From Lentisphaeria bacterium (GTDB lineage: Bacteria; Verrucomicrobiota; Lentisphaeria; Victivallales; Victivallaceae): a stretch of 64,000 bases of DNA. The stretch spans positions 1 through 64,000 of the forward strand of contig JAFVZN010000019.1 of NCBI GenBank assembly GCA_017508135.1. The letters are read 5' to 3'. Shown here in pieces: positions 23,068 to 63,718 of the stretch (the stretch's first letter is position 1; each line of letters starts with the position of its first letter). Position numbers and translations under genes: made by a program. Under the pieces are notes generated by a model. It was not told the DNA's origin. It searched no databases and was given only the letters and a program-made list of their open reading frames with translations.

Positions 23068-23121
23068 TAAGGGGCTGTTGCTCACCTTTTTGGAGGTTTG
23101 GCAACAGCCTCTTATCTTTTG
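23068..23121 (+). terminator. Terminator of ppdK
   Basis: GGCTGTTGC pairs with GCAACAGCC across a 21-nt loop, followed by TCTTATCTTTTG. Confidence 0.75.
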
Positions 23122-23153
23122 TTATTGTCTCATTTCTTGTGAAATCAAAACTT

Positions 23154-23276
23154 CGGCGGCGCATTGCGGGCAATCTCTTGTCAAGTCATCGGACGTCAAC
23201 TCAGTCGAGTACAGTCGTACACTCCTTCGTTGCCACCTCGACTTGACGTCGACCTTGCCTCACACTGCATCCGCCG
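23154..23276 (+). repeat. Hairpin element copy A
   Basis: CGGCGG/CCGCCG outer arms, GGCAA/TTGCC, GTCAAGTC/GACTTGAC, CAAC/GTTG and the apex CAGTCGAG-TAC-agtc-GTA-CACTCCTTC. An alternative perfect pairing GACGTCAA/TTGACGTC also exists. It lies after the ppdK terminator, on the same strand. Confidence 0.8.
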
Positions 23277-23305
23277 CTTGCAGCAGAGCTTTCTTTTTTG
23301 CCGTA

Positions 23306-58173: not shown

Positions 58174-59412
58174 ATGAGCAAGAATGAAGTTACCTGCGAG
58201 ATCCCCGGCCGTCCGACGGATGCCATTGAGAACAGTTCCACCAATAATGTTAATTGTGAAATTCCCGGCCGTCCGACGGACCCGTTCCGCGATTTGAACG
58301 ATTTTGTCCCGCAGTGGCGCGCCGGAGACGGCAAACCGTTTGCCGGAAAACTTCCGGAAGTGAACTCCGCTTTGAAGAATATTGACCGCGAAAGTGCGGT
58401 GATGCTGACCTTGCCCAAGGCTTTTTTCGCCATCGCCAATGAAGAGGTATGTATCGGGCTGGATAACCTGTTTGTCCTTCACGATAAGAAGCGCGCTCAG
58501 GTGAAAGTTTCTTCTCCGGTCGGCAAAGTCGAGGGCAAGTGGTGGCGTTTCACTCCGGATGCTCCCGGACGGTTCCCGTTGAAAGTCGAAGTCAGCGATC
58601 TTGCCGGACGTATCCTCGGCAGTGCGGAAACTGAGGTGATCGTTTCCGCTCCGGATGCCGGAAACGAACAGAATATCACCATGATGATGATCGGAGACAG
58701 TCTGCTGAGTGGAGCCGTTGCCGCAAAAGAGTTGTTCCGGAGAATGAAAGAACACGGCAATAAAAACTTCCGTCTGATCGGCAGTCACTCCGGCGGCGGA
58801 CGTCCTTTGGAACTGGATAAAGAGGCGGTGGAAGCCTATGGCGGCTGGCGCTGGGCGACTTTTCAGGAGAAGTGGGATGCGGAAAGCACTGCCTACAACA
58901 GTAAGAGCAAATTCATCCGGTTTCAGGAAGACGGTTCAAAAGTGCTGGATTTTCAGGCGTATCTGGATAAATACAATCAGGGTGCCGCCCCGGATATAAT
59001 TTTGTTTTTCCTCGGATGCAATGATATTGCCGGAGCTATGTCGCACCAGTTCGATGATATGCTTATGGATTCCATCAACTATCGCAAGAAAATGCTCGCC
59101 CATATCCGCAGTGTGGCACCTGAAGCATTGATCGGTCTGGTCACTCTGCCGCCAGCCAATTCCCGCGACGCGGCATATCTGGAAAACTACAAAGGCGTGG
59201 TCGTGCGCCAGCAGTATATGTTCAACCAGATGGGATATATCCAACAGCTGATGGATGAGTTTCAGGATGATCCGGACTACTCAATCATTCCGCTCTATTT
59301 GGGAATCGACAGCGATGCTGATTATCCGGAAAACAACGCCGTCCATCCGACCCCGGAGGGCTACTGCAAGTTCGGCAAGTGTTTTGAAGCGTGGGTCAAA
59401 TCGCTTTTTTAA
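58174..59412 (+). CDS. SGNH/GDSL-family hydrolase with duplicated N-terminal motif
   Basis: A 412-residue protein. Residues about 6-36 contain CEIPGRPTD twice, the DNA being a near-perfect direct repeat (58196-58224 and 58256-58284). A beta-rich domain follows (LTLPKAFFAIANEEVCIGLD ... WWRFTPDAPGRFPLKVEVSD), then the SGNH esterase domain: MMIGDSLLSG (catalytic Ser), GSHSGGGRP (Gly), LFFLGCNDIAG (Asn) and NAVHPTPEGY (Asp/His). No signal peptide, so probably cytoplasmic. Deacetylation of an oligosaccharide is a reasonable guess. Followed after 30 bases by an AraC regulator. Confidence 0.88.
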   Translation: MSKNEVTCEIPGRPTDAIENSSTNNVNCEIPGRPTDPFRDLNDFVPQWRAGDGKPFAGKLPEVNSALKNIDRESAVMLTLPKAFFAIANEEVCIGLDNLFVLHDKKRAQVKVSSPVGKVEGKWWRFTPDAPGRFPLKVEVSDLAGRILGSAETEVIVSAPDAGNEQNITMMMIGDSLLSGAVAAKELFRRMKEHGNKNFRLIGSHSGGGRPLELDKEAVEAYGGWRWATFQEKWDAESTAYNSKSKFIRFQEDGSKVLDFQAYLDKYNQGAAPDIILFFLGCNDIAGAMSHQFDDMLMDSINYRKKMLAHIRSVAPEALIGLVTLPPANSRDAAYLENYKGVVVRQQYMFNQMGYIQQLMDEFQDDPDYSIIPLYLGIDSDADYPENNAVHPTPEGYCKFGKCFEAWVKSLF

Positions 59413-59442: not shown

Positions 59443-60243
59443 ATGCGGGCGTTGAAACCGGAGTTGACAACTCTTGGCAACTTGTTGAAATTTGAGTTTA
59501 AAAAATTCTTTTTCGGCGTGAGCAACGGTCAATTTTCCACCTGCTATCCCTATGCCAGGATCGTGTACTCTTTGGGCAGCAGTGAAGCGAGTTTCATGAT
59601 TGATGGCAAGCAGAAGGTTGACCTTGAGCGTGGTATGTGGATGCTTTTGCCGCCCTTCACAGAAGTGCGGCATCACCACGCGCACCACCGGCAGTTGTCG
59701 CTCCACTTCAGTTACTCGCTCTTGCGCGGTATTGAGATTTTGTCTGTTTTTTCTCATATACAGTATGGTTACGCTCCGGAACTTCTGGAGATGATCGAAC
59801 AAATGGAGCCGGAGGAACCTTTCTGCTTTTTAAACGATGCTGAAATCGTTGTCCGCACCATTTTGAAAAAAATCATGATGCTCCCGGAATTTTCTCTGCG
59901 CGGGGAAGGGGATTGGAAACTTTTGCGTTACAACCGTCTGACGGAGTATCTGCACCGGCATTTGAGTTCAAAAGTTACAGTTGCCGATATGGCAAAGGTG
60001 ATGAATATGAGTGCTCAAGTGTTTGCGCGCAGGTTTGTTGCCGATACCGGGATGACTCCGCGCAAATTCAATGAAAACATCGTCATTGAAGAGGCTATCA
60101 AACTGCTGGAAGCGGAGGAGCTTTCCATCAAAGAGATCGCAGAACAGCTTCATTTTTCCAGTGAATACTATTTTTCGCGCTTTTTCAAGCGGAGCATGAA
60201 TCTTCCTCCGGGGGCGTTCCGGAAAAAGAGGATGCTGGTGTAA
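59443..60243 (+). CDS. AraC-family transcriptional regulator
   Basis: A 266-residue activator-type regulator with an N-terminal cupin-like sensing domain (FMIDGKQKVDLERGMWMLLPPFTEVRHHH) and a C-terminal double helix-turn-helix: VTVADMAKVMNMSAQVFARRF and LSIKEIAEQLHFSSEYYFSRFFKR. Placed directly before the glycyl radical enzyme on the same strand and 30 bases after the SGNH gene, it may control one or both. Ligand unknown. Confidence 0.92.
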   Translation: MRALKPELTTLGNLLKFEFKKFFFGVSNGQFSTCYPYARIVYSLGSSEASFMIDGKQKVDLERGMWMLLPPFTEVRHHHAHHRQLSLHFSYSLLRGIEILSVFSHIQYGYAPELLEMIEQMEPEEPFCFLNDAEIVVRTILKKIMMLPEFSLRGEGDWKLLRYNRLTEYLHRHLSSKVTVADMAKVMNMSAQVFARRFVADTGMTPRKFNENIVIEEAIKLLEAEELSIKEIAEQLHFSSEYYFSRFFKRSMNLPPGAFRKKRMLV

Positions 60244-60337: not shown

Positions 60338-62542
60338 ATGATAAAGCAGTGGGAAATCGACCGGGAGTATCTGGAACGCAAGTTCACTGACCCGGATTTT
60401 TACAATGGCGTTCCGGGAAAATCGCCTGCGGAATTGAAGGAGGAATTGATTTCTCTTTTTGAAAAGACCGAACATTTGCCGCATCCGGTAGCGAAAGCGG
60501 AGGCATTTGCTTTGATCGTCAATGAGATGCAAGTTTCAGTCTCTAATTGCGACTATTTTCCTGCGTTCTCCATCTGGGGGAAAAAACTGCTGGCATCCAC
60601 CCATCAGGCATTGTGGAGGAATGAGATCATTTCTGAAATCTATCCCGGAGAGGATGCCGCTGCTCATGCGGCGATGGCGGAGAGCCGGACGGTGCAGGTG
60701 CGATTTGATTATGAACACTCCGTACCGGATTGGGATGCCGTGCTGGAGCTGGGATTTTCCGGATTGCTGGAACGCGCCTGCCGTTATGAAAAAGATAAAT
60801 CCCCGGAATTCGCCGCTCATCCGGAGTACCGTGATTATTTTGCGGCAATCAAAATCGAGTATCAGGCGATCCTCAAATTGATGGAACGTCTGACCGCCGA
60901 AGCGGCAAAACTTCCGGCTCAACCGAAAGGTGCGGCGTTGCATGAGGCACTGCTTCAACTGCAAAAGGGCAGTGCGCGCAACTTCTATGAAGCATTGCTG
61001 CAAATCTGGTTGTACTTCCTGTTGTCAGAGTATGTTGACGTTATCCAGACCCGTACCTTCGGCAACCTTGACCGGATACTTTATCCTTATTACAAGCGCG
61101 ACCTCGACTCCGGCAGATACACTGAAGCGGAAATCCGTTATTTTATACGCAGTTTCATGTATCAGGCAACGGCGATGCATTACACTGTAGGACACCCGTT
61201 CTACTTCGGCGGAACCAACGCCGACGGCAGCAGTGCGATCAATGAGTTGTCGTATCTGATTTTGGATGAGTATGATAAAATAGGGATATTTGACCCCAAA
61301 CTCCAGATAAAAGTTTCAGAAAACACTCCCGTGGATTTTATTGACCGGGCACTGGATATGATCCGGCGCGGACAGAACAGCATTGTTTTTGTCGGCGAAC
61401 CGTGTATCATCCGGACGATGCTGAAGTACGGTTACTCTCTCCGCGAGGCGCAGACTGCCGATATCAAGGGGTGTTATGAATATTGTGCGCGCGGCGGAGC
61501 GGTGGAAACTGCTCCTGTGACGGTCAATGCGGCAAAGGTGCTGGGGCTGGCTTTGCACAACGGGGTTGAAGTTTTGAGCGGCAAACGGATCGGACTTGAA
61601 ACGGGGGAAGTTTCAACTTTCAAAAATTTCCGGCAGCTTTACCGGGCGTTTCTCCGGCAGCTGTTCTTCATGTTCGACCGGAGTGTGGAGTTTGCCCTGC
61701 GCATTGAAAAACATCTGGATACGGTCAAGCCCGCGCCGATGCTCAGTGCCACCTTTGAAGAGAGTTTGCGTCGTGCGGTCGATGGTTACAGCCGGGGGGC
61801 GAAGTACAACAACTCCAATGTGTGGCTCTGCGCCCCGGCAACGGCGGCGGATTCGCTGACGATGATCAAGCGTTATGTTTTTGACCGCAAAGAGTTGACG
61901 CTTGCGGAATTTACTGCGATACTGGATCGGGATTTTGCCGGAGATGAAGTGTTCCGTCAGCGTTTGCTGCATGACCCGGAAAAGTATGGAAACAATCAGG
62001 AGCTTCCTGACCGGATAGCGGTGCATTTTGCCAGTGCCGTTGCCCGCCGTTACAACGGTAAACCCAACTCGCGCGGCGGATTTTTCACAACTGCGCTCCA
62101 CGCCTCCAACCGTTTTGTCCAGTGGGCGGATCAGGTGGAAGCTACTGCCGACGGCCGTAAACGCGGAGATGAGCTCAGCAAAAATATCACGGCAACGCAG
62201 GGATGCTCTTTTAAGGGAGCGACCGCGCTGGTCGCATCGGCACTGAAGTTCGATTCATCGCTCTTTATGGCGGATCTGCCGGTGGATGTGATGCTGCATC
62301 CGTCAGAAGTAAAAGGCGATGCCGGAATTGCCGCCATGCGTTCTCTTTTGATGACCTTTATCAAACATTACGGACACGCTCTGCAATTCAATGTGATGGA
62401 TGTCAACGTGTTGCGAAAGGCTCAGAAGGAGCCGGAGAAATACCGCAACCTTCAGGTGCGTATTTGCGGATGGAACGTCTTGTGGAACTCCATACCGCGC
62501 CGGGAACAGGATGCTTATATCAGACAGGCAGAGAGATTATGA
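60338..62542 (+). CDS. Glycyl radical enzyme of unassigned substrate
   Basis: A 734-residue pyruvate formate-lyase-superfamily enzyme. The C-terminal radical loop is RICGWN with the radical glycine at G711, 24 residues from the end. The thiyl site is KGCYEYCARGG (C379, E381). The C-x-E pattern occurs in eliminase-type members (glycerol/propanediol dehydratase, choline lyase) whereas PFL itself has two adjacent cysteines, so an eliminase or dehydratase is favoured. Tyr between Cys and Glu and the following YCARGG do not match classes I can name. AAAGGAGG lies 8 bases before ATG 60338. Its activase is encoded 300 bp downstream. Confidence 0.92.
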   Translation: MIKQWEIDREYLERKFTDPDFYNGVPGKSPAELKEELISLFEKTEHLPHPVAKAEAFALIVNEMQVSVSNCDYFPAFSIWGKKLLASTHQALWRNEIISEIYPGEDAAAHAAMAESRTVQVRFDYEHSVPDWDAVLELGFSGLLERACRYEKDKSPEFAAHPEYRDYFAAIKIEYQAILKLMERLTAEAAKLPAQPKGAALHEALLQLQKGSARNFYEALLQIWLYFLLSEYVDVIQTRTFGNLDRILYPYYKRDLDSGRYTEAEIRYFIRSFMYQATAMHYTVGHPFYFGGTNADGSSAINELSYLILDEYDKIGIFDPKLQIKVSENTPVDFIDRALDMIRRGQNSIVFVGEPCIIRTMLKYGYSLREAQTADIKGCYEYCARGGAVETAPVTVNAAKVLGLALHNGVEVLSGKRIGLETGEVSTFKNFRQLYRAFLRQLFFMFDRSVEFALRIEKHLDTVKPAPMLSATFEESLRRAVDGYSRGAKYNNSNVWLCAPATAADSLTMIKRYVFDRKELTLAEFTAILDRDFAGDEVFRQRLLHDPEKYGNNQELPDRIAVHFASAVARRYNGKPNSRGGFFTTALHASNRFVQWADQVEATADGRKRGDELSKNITATQGCSFKGATALVASALKFDSSLFMADLPVDVMLHPSEVKGDAGIAAMRSLLMTFIKHYGHALQFNVMDVNVLRKAQKEPEKYRNLQVRICGWNVLWNSIPRREQDAYIRQAERL

Positions 62543-62579
62543 TTGGTGTTGTCTCATTTTTTGTGAGAAATCTAAACTG

Positions 62580-62703
62580 CGGCGGCGCCTCGTGGGCAAT
62601 CTTACCGGCAAATCTGCGGACTCATCTTCAGTCGAGGACAATAGTCCACTCCTTCAGCTTCGCCTTGATTTACCGGCAACCTTGCCGCACGATCCATCCG
62701 CCG
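62580..62703 (+). repeat. Hairpin element copy B
   Basis: CGGCGG/CCGCCG outer arms, GGCAA/TTGCC, ACCGGCAAAT pairing at 8 of 10 positions with ATTTACCGGC, and the apex CAGTCGAG-GAC-aata-GTC-CACTCCTTC. The flank GTCTCATTTTTTGTGAGAAA matches that of copy A. Confidence 0.8.
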
Positions 62704-62726
62704 ATTGCAAACGACTGTTTTTATTC

Positions 62727-62755
62727 TTGACAAATCACAATCTATGTTATATATT
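62727..62755 (+). promoter_or_regulatory. Promoter of the activase gene
   Basis: TTGACA (62727-62732), 17-bp spacer, TATATT (62750-62755). Position relative to element B matches the orphan promoter after element A. Confidence 0.7.
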
Positions 62756-62842
62756 TTTAAAGTTTTTAAAGTTTTTAAAGTAATATAAATACAATTTTCT
62801 TTCAGAGAATATTCAGTTTCACAAAATTTGGGACATTAACTT

Positions 62843-63718
62843 ATGATTACAGGAACGGTACTGGATTTTGAACACTTTGCCATTCACGATGGCCCGGGTA
62901 TCCGGATGGTGGTGTTTTTGAAGGGGTGTCCTTTGCGCTGTATCTGGTGTCATACTCCGGAATCACAGCATCGTGAGCAGGAACTGCTTTTTTATGAAGA
63001 CCGCTGTATCGGCTGCGGCTGTTGCGGAAACGTTTTTGACAAACTGCCGCTGGCATCTCCGTCACAGGAACAACTGGATGCAGTTTCGCGTTGTCCGGTG
63101 CGGGCGGTTTCTGTTGCGGGGAAAGAGATGACGGTCGATGCTGTTGCTGCCGAACTGGAAAAAGAGATCATGTTTTTCAATGAAAGCGGCGGCGGTTTGA
63201 CCATCTCCGGCGGAGAACCGCTCTTTCAGTTTGAGTTCACTTTGGAGTTGGCAAAGCGCGCAAAAGAGCGCGGCATCGGATGTTGTATCGAAACGTGCGG
63301 TTATGGCAGATTTGAACTTCTTGAACAGCTCATACCGTATACCGATATTTTCCTTTTTGATTACAAGGCAACAGCTCCCGAGCTTCACCGGAAACTTACC
63401 GGCGTGGATAATTTTCTTATCTTGGAAAATCTGCGGAAACTCAACGCATCAGGCGCAAAGATCATTTTGCGCTGTCCGCTTGTTCCCGGTGTCAACGATC
63501 AGGAGGAGCATTTGTGTGCCATTGCAAATATTGCCAATGAACTTGAGCATGTTGAAGCCATTCACATTGAACCCTATCACCCGATGGCACGGGGAAAATA
63601 TCAAGCATTGAAACGCAGTTGTTCCGGGATTCCGGAGGAGTTCCCTTCTGCTGACACGATAGAACACTGGAAGGCTGTTATCTCCGCGCACACCGGAAAG
63701 ATGGTGCTTATCCCCTGA
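62843..63718 (+). CDS. Glycyl radical enzyme activase (radical SAM)
   Basis: A 291-residue activating enzyme that abstracts hydrogen from the glycine of its partner. HDGPGIRMVVFLKGCPLRCIWC carries the SAM cluster motif C29-x3-C33-x2-C36 in the activase-specific form. A ferredoxin-like insert (CIGCGCC ... CPVRAV) binds an auxiliary cluster but looks shortened compared with two-cluster activases. ISGGEPLFQ, IETCGYG and LFDYKATAPE complete the barrel. Partner: the enzyme at 60338-62542. Its stop is one base from the convergent AraC gene. Confidence 0.95.
   Translation: MITGTVLDFEHFAIHDGPGIRMVVFLKGCPLRCIWCHTPESQHREQELLFYEDRCIGCGCCGNVFDKLPLASPSQEQLDAVSRCPVRAVSVAGKEMTVDAVAAELEKEIMFFNESGGGLTISGGEPLFQFEFTLELAKRAKERGIGCCIETCGYGRFELLEQLIPYTDIFLFDYKATAPELHRKLTGVDNFLILENLRKLNASGAKIILRCPLVPGVNDQEEHLCAIANIANELEHVEAIHIEPYHPMARGKYQALKRSCSGIPEEFPSADTIEHWKAVISAHTGKMVLIP

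Follow-up and report, generated by a model that had tools for sequence, protein, structure and literature searches.

A glycyl radical enzyme of a GCYE/CGWN class and its AraC-linked cassette in a Lentisphaeria genome

Genes and features of the locus

The window, a stretch of 64,000 nucleotides from a Lentisphaeria metagenome-assembled genome (MAG), carries near its right end a forward-strand gene (60338..62542) encoding a glycyl radical enzyme (GRE; an oxygen-sensitive radical enzyme) of 734 amino acids, as judged by ORF translation, Pfam and predicted fold. The product matches the PFL-like Pfam family (301.7 bits) and Gly_radical (PF01228, 66.8 bits, cut-off 22.2). Residues 378-381 read GCYE (61469..61480, forward strand) and contain the predicted thiyl residue Cys379, the class-specific Tyr380 and Glu381 of the C-x-E motif (Cys379-Tyr-Glu381) found in the Cys loop of GRE eliminases. 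The Gly loop, QVRICGWN (residues 706-713; 62453..62476, forward strand), includes RICGWN at residues 708-713, thereby presenting the superfamily feature R-x-x-G-[FWY] (RICGW) in the C-terminal Gly_radical domain and placing the predicted radical glycine at Gly711 (62468-62470). The predicted model is a barrel with Cys and Gly loops (pLDDT 93.9), and the top rows of both Foldseek and VIA searches are GREs. The reading frame is undamaged, and a Ka/Ks of 0.086 relative to an ortholog of 98% identity shows purifying selection. The MAG from which the window comes is 72.65% complete and contains one PF01228 match. Membership of the product in the GRE family is thus secure, and the open reading frame, the Pfam matches and the invariance of the motifs in alignment A1 (see below) bear out the initial annotation, which had read a GRE with C379-Y-E381 and RICGWN here. 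The three neighbours it named also exist: an AraC regulator (59443-60243), an SGNH-like gene (58174-59412) and an activase (62843-63718).

The AraC-type regulator lies upstream on the forward strand (59443..60243) and was identified by Pfam and domain search; its N-terminal domain is linked to GREs of the class described below. A second AraC gene follows the activase on the opposite strand (63720-64580), and the end of the window falls inside it. The SGNH-like gene (58174-59412) gave a Pfam match below cut-off. Its protein starts with a doubled CEIPGRPTD peptide, and relatives of 57-58% identity match only from residue 26, past the first copy.

A radical SAM GRE activase is encoded downstream (62843..63718, forward strand; Pfam, NCBIfam) and passes TIGR02494 (284.8 versus 174.35 bits), in line with the dedicated activase proposed initially and with the nearby cognate activase expected for a GRE. 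Across the class, 48 of the 77 GREs are followed by an activase at a distance of up to 1.5 kb. The ferredoxin-like insert of the window activase holds five cysteines, sufficient for about one extra cluster, whereas most such inserts hold eight or more. A single auxiliary cluster was considered as a special trait of this activase and rejected because it recurs, with four cysteines in 9 of 91 inserts, five in 7 of 91, and a further instance in E. coli PflC. The activase has a Ka/Ks of 0.30, compared with about 0.09 for the GRE and the AraC gene.

Between the GRE and activase genes sits a multicopy insertion of about 300 bp (62544..62842, no strand assigned) that is not part of the ancestral unit; the 98% ortholog has an empty site there. 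The insertion carries the repeat TTATGATT at both ends, has matches in 19 of the 34 genus genomes (26 in its own MAG and 32 in G092) and a shorter match at about 23119-23282 of the window, and shows strong DNA folding (z -3.4); it looks like a MITE. A promoter-like site, TTGACA-17-TATATT (62727-62755), faces the activase; eight promoter-like sites were found in the region, compared with 4.3 in shuffles. Rfam gave no match around the cassette.

Extent of the class and linkage to AraC regulators

All 28 sequences of alignment A1, among them the window protein, have GCYE and CGWN without variation, and the motif is therefore not a chance feature. YCARGG, which the initial annotation had listed as a third motif, is not conserved in the same alignment. 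A wider set was assembled from 157 loci and reduced to 122 non-identical sequences, to which 10 references were added, leaving aside viral-contig loci, short or truncated sequences and exact duplicates. GCYE occurs in 113 of the 122 GREs, and all 113 also contain CGW. Of these class sequences, 65 were found by a scan that used the Gly-loop motif among its patterns and are biased for that reason, 47 came from a plain protein search (the 30 best, plus 17 in 20 lower-scoring stretches), and one from a stretch fetched by its place. In a FastTree analysis the 113 GCYE sequences and two degenerate members form one clade (support 0.98, stem 0.511), apart from the characterised GRE types sampled in this tree, which was built without HPAD, IAD and BSS sequences; branch order below the clade is poorly supported. 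By these alignments, the GCYE/CGWN motif is the mark of a class and not of one odd protein.

The class appears to be large and, within the searches made, so far uncharacterised: among the matches listed from the open-access literature searched we found no account of it, and no curated family among the searches made names it. Contig titles assign its hosts to Lentisphaerae, Clostridia and Phycisphaerae, and one member (42% identity) belongs to a named strain, Oligosphaera ethanolica DSM 24202 (locus L065). Viral contigs contributed nine weak relatives, the closest at no more than 29% identity.

Several loci depart from the common pattern. The two degenerate members within the clade are L057:5462-7702, which reads GCFN/VTGW, has lost the Glu of C-x-E and stands beside a normal copy, and L146:2983-5091, which has degenerated to GCCE/VSGW. 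GRE-like proteins adjoining class members at L095:6026-8074, L095:14367-16499 and L115:14083-16137 carry odd Cys loops (ACCT, GCNE, SCMG) and Gly loops (LYGF, VSGF, IGGY). One Clostridiaceae MAG contig (L049:5336-16540) encodes four class GREs within about 11 kb, with no activase called in that stretch.

An AraC-type ORF was found within 1.5 kb upstream of 38 of the 71 class GREs with room for one, 35 being divergent and three in the same direction (the window, its 98% ortholog and L068). On the downstream side such an ORF occurs in 6 of 77 cases, and the background rate is 0.083 per 1.5 kb. A search of 387 genomes with the N-terminal domain of the window AraC (165 residues, leaving off the DNA-binding part) gave matches in 12 at a threshold of 1e-6. 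Nine of these matches adjoin a class GRE, and a tenth, in G382, lies about 50 bp from a GRE. The AraC gene and the GRE of G011 are on two contigs that share a tandem repeat at their ends, as would be expected of neighbours split by an assembly break. The weakest match, in G353, has no GRE found in 8.5 kb. The linkage is thus direct in 10 of 12 genomes, inferred in one (G011) and contradicted in one (G353). The AraC control proposed initially holds up, at the level of gene order, as a linkage conserved across the class. The G011 tandem repeat (end of L037 and start of L202; contigs C7 and C27) lies between the GRE and the AraC gene, is full of short palindromes and was apparently the cause of the assembly break.

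Probable mobility of the cassette and the resident SGNH gene

A GRE ortholog of more than 60% identity is present in two of the 34 genus genomes examined (G000 and G092). Between these two genomes, Ks is 0.81 for glgP, 0.71 for glgA, 0.63 for glgB, 0.52 for a glycerol-1-phosphate-dehydrogenase-like gene and 0.29 for the SGNH gene; it is 0.081 for AraC, 0.089 for the GRE and 0.123 for the activase. The second AraC gene has a Ks of 0.18. The fall in Ks at AraC-GRE-activase relative to the flanks suggests recent transfer. The sister species G153 keeps the run glgP, glgB, dehydrogenase and SGNH, followed by unrelated genes (its glgA is unconfirmed, the stretch between glgP and glgB being called on the other strand), and a protein search of G153 gave no GRE match. 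Taken together, the synteny of G153 without the cassette and the Ks pattern indicate that the SGNH gene is resident and that AraC-GRE-activase recently arrived or was exchanged; on sequence comparison, this unit has undergone recent movement or recombination inside the genus.

The initial annotation had included the SGNH hydrolase in an inducible pathway with the GRE. This assignment does not survive: a relative of 58% identity occupies the same syntenic place in a cassette-less genome, which rules the gene out as a pathway member, and it is a resident of a syntenic locus from which the cassette is absent in the sister species. In phmmer searches with eight seeds, SGNH or SASA genes were found near several class GREs and belong to different subfamilies. 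The two remaining close orthologs of the GRE have other surroundings, behind an ior operon in G014 and with a divergent AraC gene in G370. GRE, regulator and activase look like a small unit exchangeable among gut bacteria.

Active site and probable chemistry

With the window GRE and with three other class members, the NCBIfam equivalog models fall well short of their cut-offs. For the window GRE, HypD (trans-4-hydroxy-L-proline dehydratase; NF043068) scores 304.5 against 1100 bits, CutC 203.7 against 1050, and HpfG and HpsG (DHPS dehydratase/sulfolyase) 234.7 and 230.6 against 1000. The best solved relative by sequence is HypD (245.5 bits), and the top Foldseek ranks go to HypD, glycerol dehydratase and propanediol dehydratase, with identities of 21-23%. 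The fold does not pick a GRE class, since VIA-align gives Z values of 30-45 against many GREs of all kinds. The clustering with a characterised class that would have spoken against a distinct enzyme was seen neither in the tree of sampled types nor in NCBIfam. The motif itself is less alien than stated initially. C-x-E is described as conserved in GRE eliminases (eLife 51420, PMC7077986), and the GRE fingerprint RVxG[FWY] (PMC11528403) allows Trp after the Gly, so both elements fall within published patterns; what stands of the unfamiliarity is the separation from every characterised class sampled.

HypD (6vxc) shares with the window GRE the Gly and Cys loops, C-x-E and an aligned His, but the two are only about 23% identical and the positions of HypD Asp278, Asp339, Phe340 and Tyr450 are changed. 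His160, Asp278, Asp339 and Glu436 are reported as essential in HypD (eLife 51420). The window GRE keeps Cys379 and Glu381, and His127 (60716..60718, forward strand) aligns with the catalytic His; from the spacing to Arg156 we infer that this residue corresponds to HypD His160. Asp278, Asp339 and Phe340 are replaced by Gln237, Val284 and Gly285. YbiW and PflD, the 1,5-anhydrohexitol-6-phosphate GREs, share the fold and C-x-E, yet they lie on separate branches of the tree, and the PflD model (NF007437) gives the window GRE 198 bits against a cut-off of 1109. As GREs acting on phosphorylated sugar-like substrates (PMC12441222), they offer a possible parallel. The aminoacyl radical enzymes, presented in PMC11528403 as GRE relatives close to eliminases and often in gut MAGs, carry Ala, Ser or Thr where GREs have the radical Gly, whereas Gly711 is kept in 113 of 113 class sequences.

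Compared with the 10 references, Arg239, Lys321, Tyr380, Gln706, Cys710 and Trp712 are letters of the class's own in all 113 sequences, followed by Asn713 and Asp650 (112 each), Glu231 (111), Asp72 and Lys615 (109 each) and Trp132 (108); the invariance of Tyr380 is by construction, as it belongs to the selection motif. Lys615 replaces the Asp (or Glu, Pro) of the references and Asp650 their Asn (Thr in PflB), and the two may be a swapped structural pair. Arg239 (61052..61054, forward strand) is placed by alignment on or near barrel strand 1 and is found in none of the 10 references. With pocket placement by alignment, a negatively charged substrate is plausible in view of the invariance of Arg239 and Lys321.

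The changes from known enzymes bear on the other readings of this GRE. That it is a plain 1,2-diol dehydratase, acting on propanediol, glycerol or a deoxy-sugar route with a drifted motif, is unlikely. The B12-independent glycerol and 1,2-propanediol dehydratases (1r8w, 5i2g) are among the best solved relatives and have the fold, C-x-E and the aligned His in common with the window GRE. Identity to them is only about 21-24%, however; barrel strand 1 reads HSI in them and QTR in the window, and the Gly loop AGYS and CGWN, respectively. Gln237 and Thr238 occupy the positions of His281 and Ser282, the glycerol-binding residues of glycerol dehydratase, the class-invariant Arg would be out of place for a neutral diol, and inspection by eye of the ortholog and class loci listed revealed no genes for a microcompartment or for propanediol use. 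Pyruvate or ketoacid formate-lyase activity is very improbable: the PFL-like Pfam match agrees with it, but PflB has adjacent cysteines without Glu (CCVS) where the window GRE has GCYE, and the TIGR01255 score is 51, where the cut-off stands at 994.

A further reading, as an arylacetate decarboxylase, comes from one ortholog of 68% identity (L042), where a same-strand run of iorB, a gene for a PaaK-like ligase, an aminotransferase gene and iorA precedes the GRE and activase at 37-bp spacing; this is the set that making arylacetate from aromatic amino acids should require, and the IorA passes TIGR03336. We demote this route and consider it unlikely, because in 12 of 12 other loci the ior operon has no GRE behind it, although in several of them the sequence stops shortly past iorA. 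Furthermore, the other three close orthologs have no ior operon, and the HPAD and IAD (arylacetate decarboxylase) models score 167.1 and 168.3 bits against cut-offs of 1150 and 1100.

We favour, with somewhat more confidence than doubt, an inducible mobile GRE cassette encoding a radical eliminase of the dehydratase type that acts on a small, probably anionic, polyhydroxylated molecule. From its residues the enzyme is likely an eliminase, with the reservation that C-x-E does not prove elimination, since decarboxylase GREs also carry it. The AraC regulator would sense the substrate, and under anaerobic conditions the activase would place the radical on Gly711, from which it would pass to Cys379. 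The Cys379 thiyl would abstract a hydrogen atom from a C-H bond of the substrate, Glu381, under the tuning influence of His127, would serve as the base on the neighbouring hydroxyl, and the leaving group, most likely OH, would be expelled from the adjacent carbon to release a carbonyl or deoxy product. As a guess from residues and neighbours, the substrate is probably small, polyhydroxylated, sugar-derived and negatively charged, with Arg239 helping to bind it; the deoxy-sugar or other diol suggested initially is possible. At other class loci the GRE stands in short operons with SMP-30-like, SASA (acetylesterase), DeoC-like, amidohydrolase, dehydrogenase and DUF4838-like genes (Pfam-confirmed for one SASA gene and the DUF4838 of the window contig, and labelled by eye for the rest), which point weakly to sugar derivatives. 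Against the eliminase cassette count the operon partners, which are few and differ between loci, the ortholog behind an indolepyruvate oxidoreductase operon, and the HypD substrate-binding residues, which the class does not keep; no conserved downstream pathway was found across the class loci.

A bolder and rather doubtful extension takes the coordinated changes at both radical sites (Tyr380 next to the thiyl Cys; Cys710 and Trp712 next to the radical Gly) together with the invariant Arg239 as signs that the class carries out a novel GRE reaction, with anionic sugar derivatives as substrates and perhaps one more redox-active step in the transfer of the radical. In this view a mobile cassette under AraC control would have carried the class among anaerobes of the herbivore gut.

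The known GRE classes have proved to catalyse different reactions, a number of which matter in the gut, where they concern trimethylamine, p-cresol, hydroxyproline and sulfonates. The GCYE/CGWN enzymes would add a large class across contigs of Lentisphaerae, Clostridia and Phycisphaerae, sometimes with several copies per locus. The class regulator should report the substrate of its own GRE, and this, together with the named host strain Oligosphaera ethanolica, makes the chemistry of the class testable.
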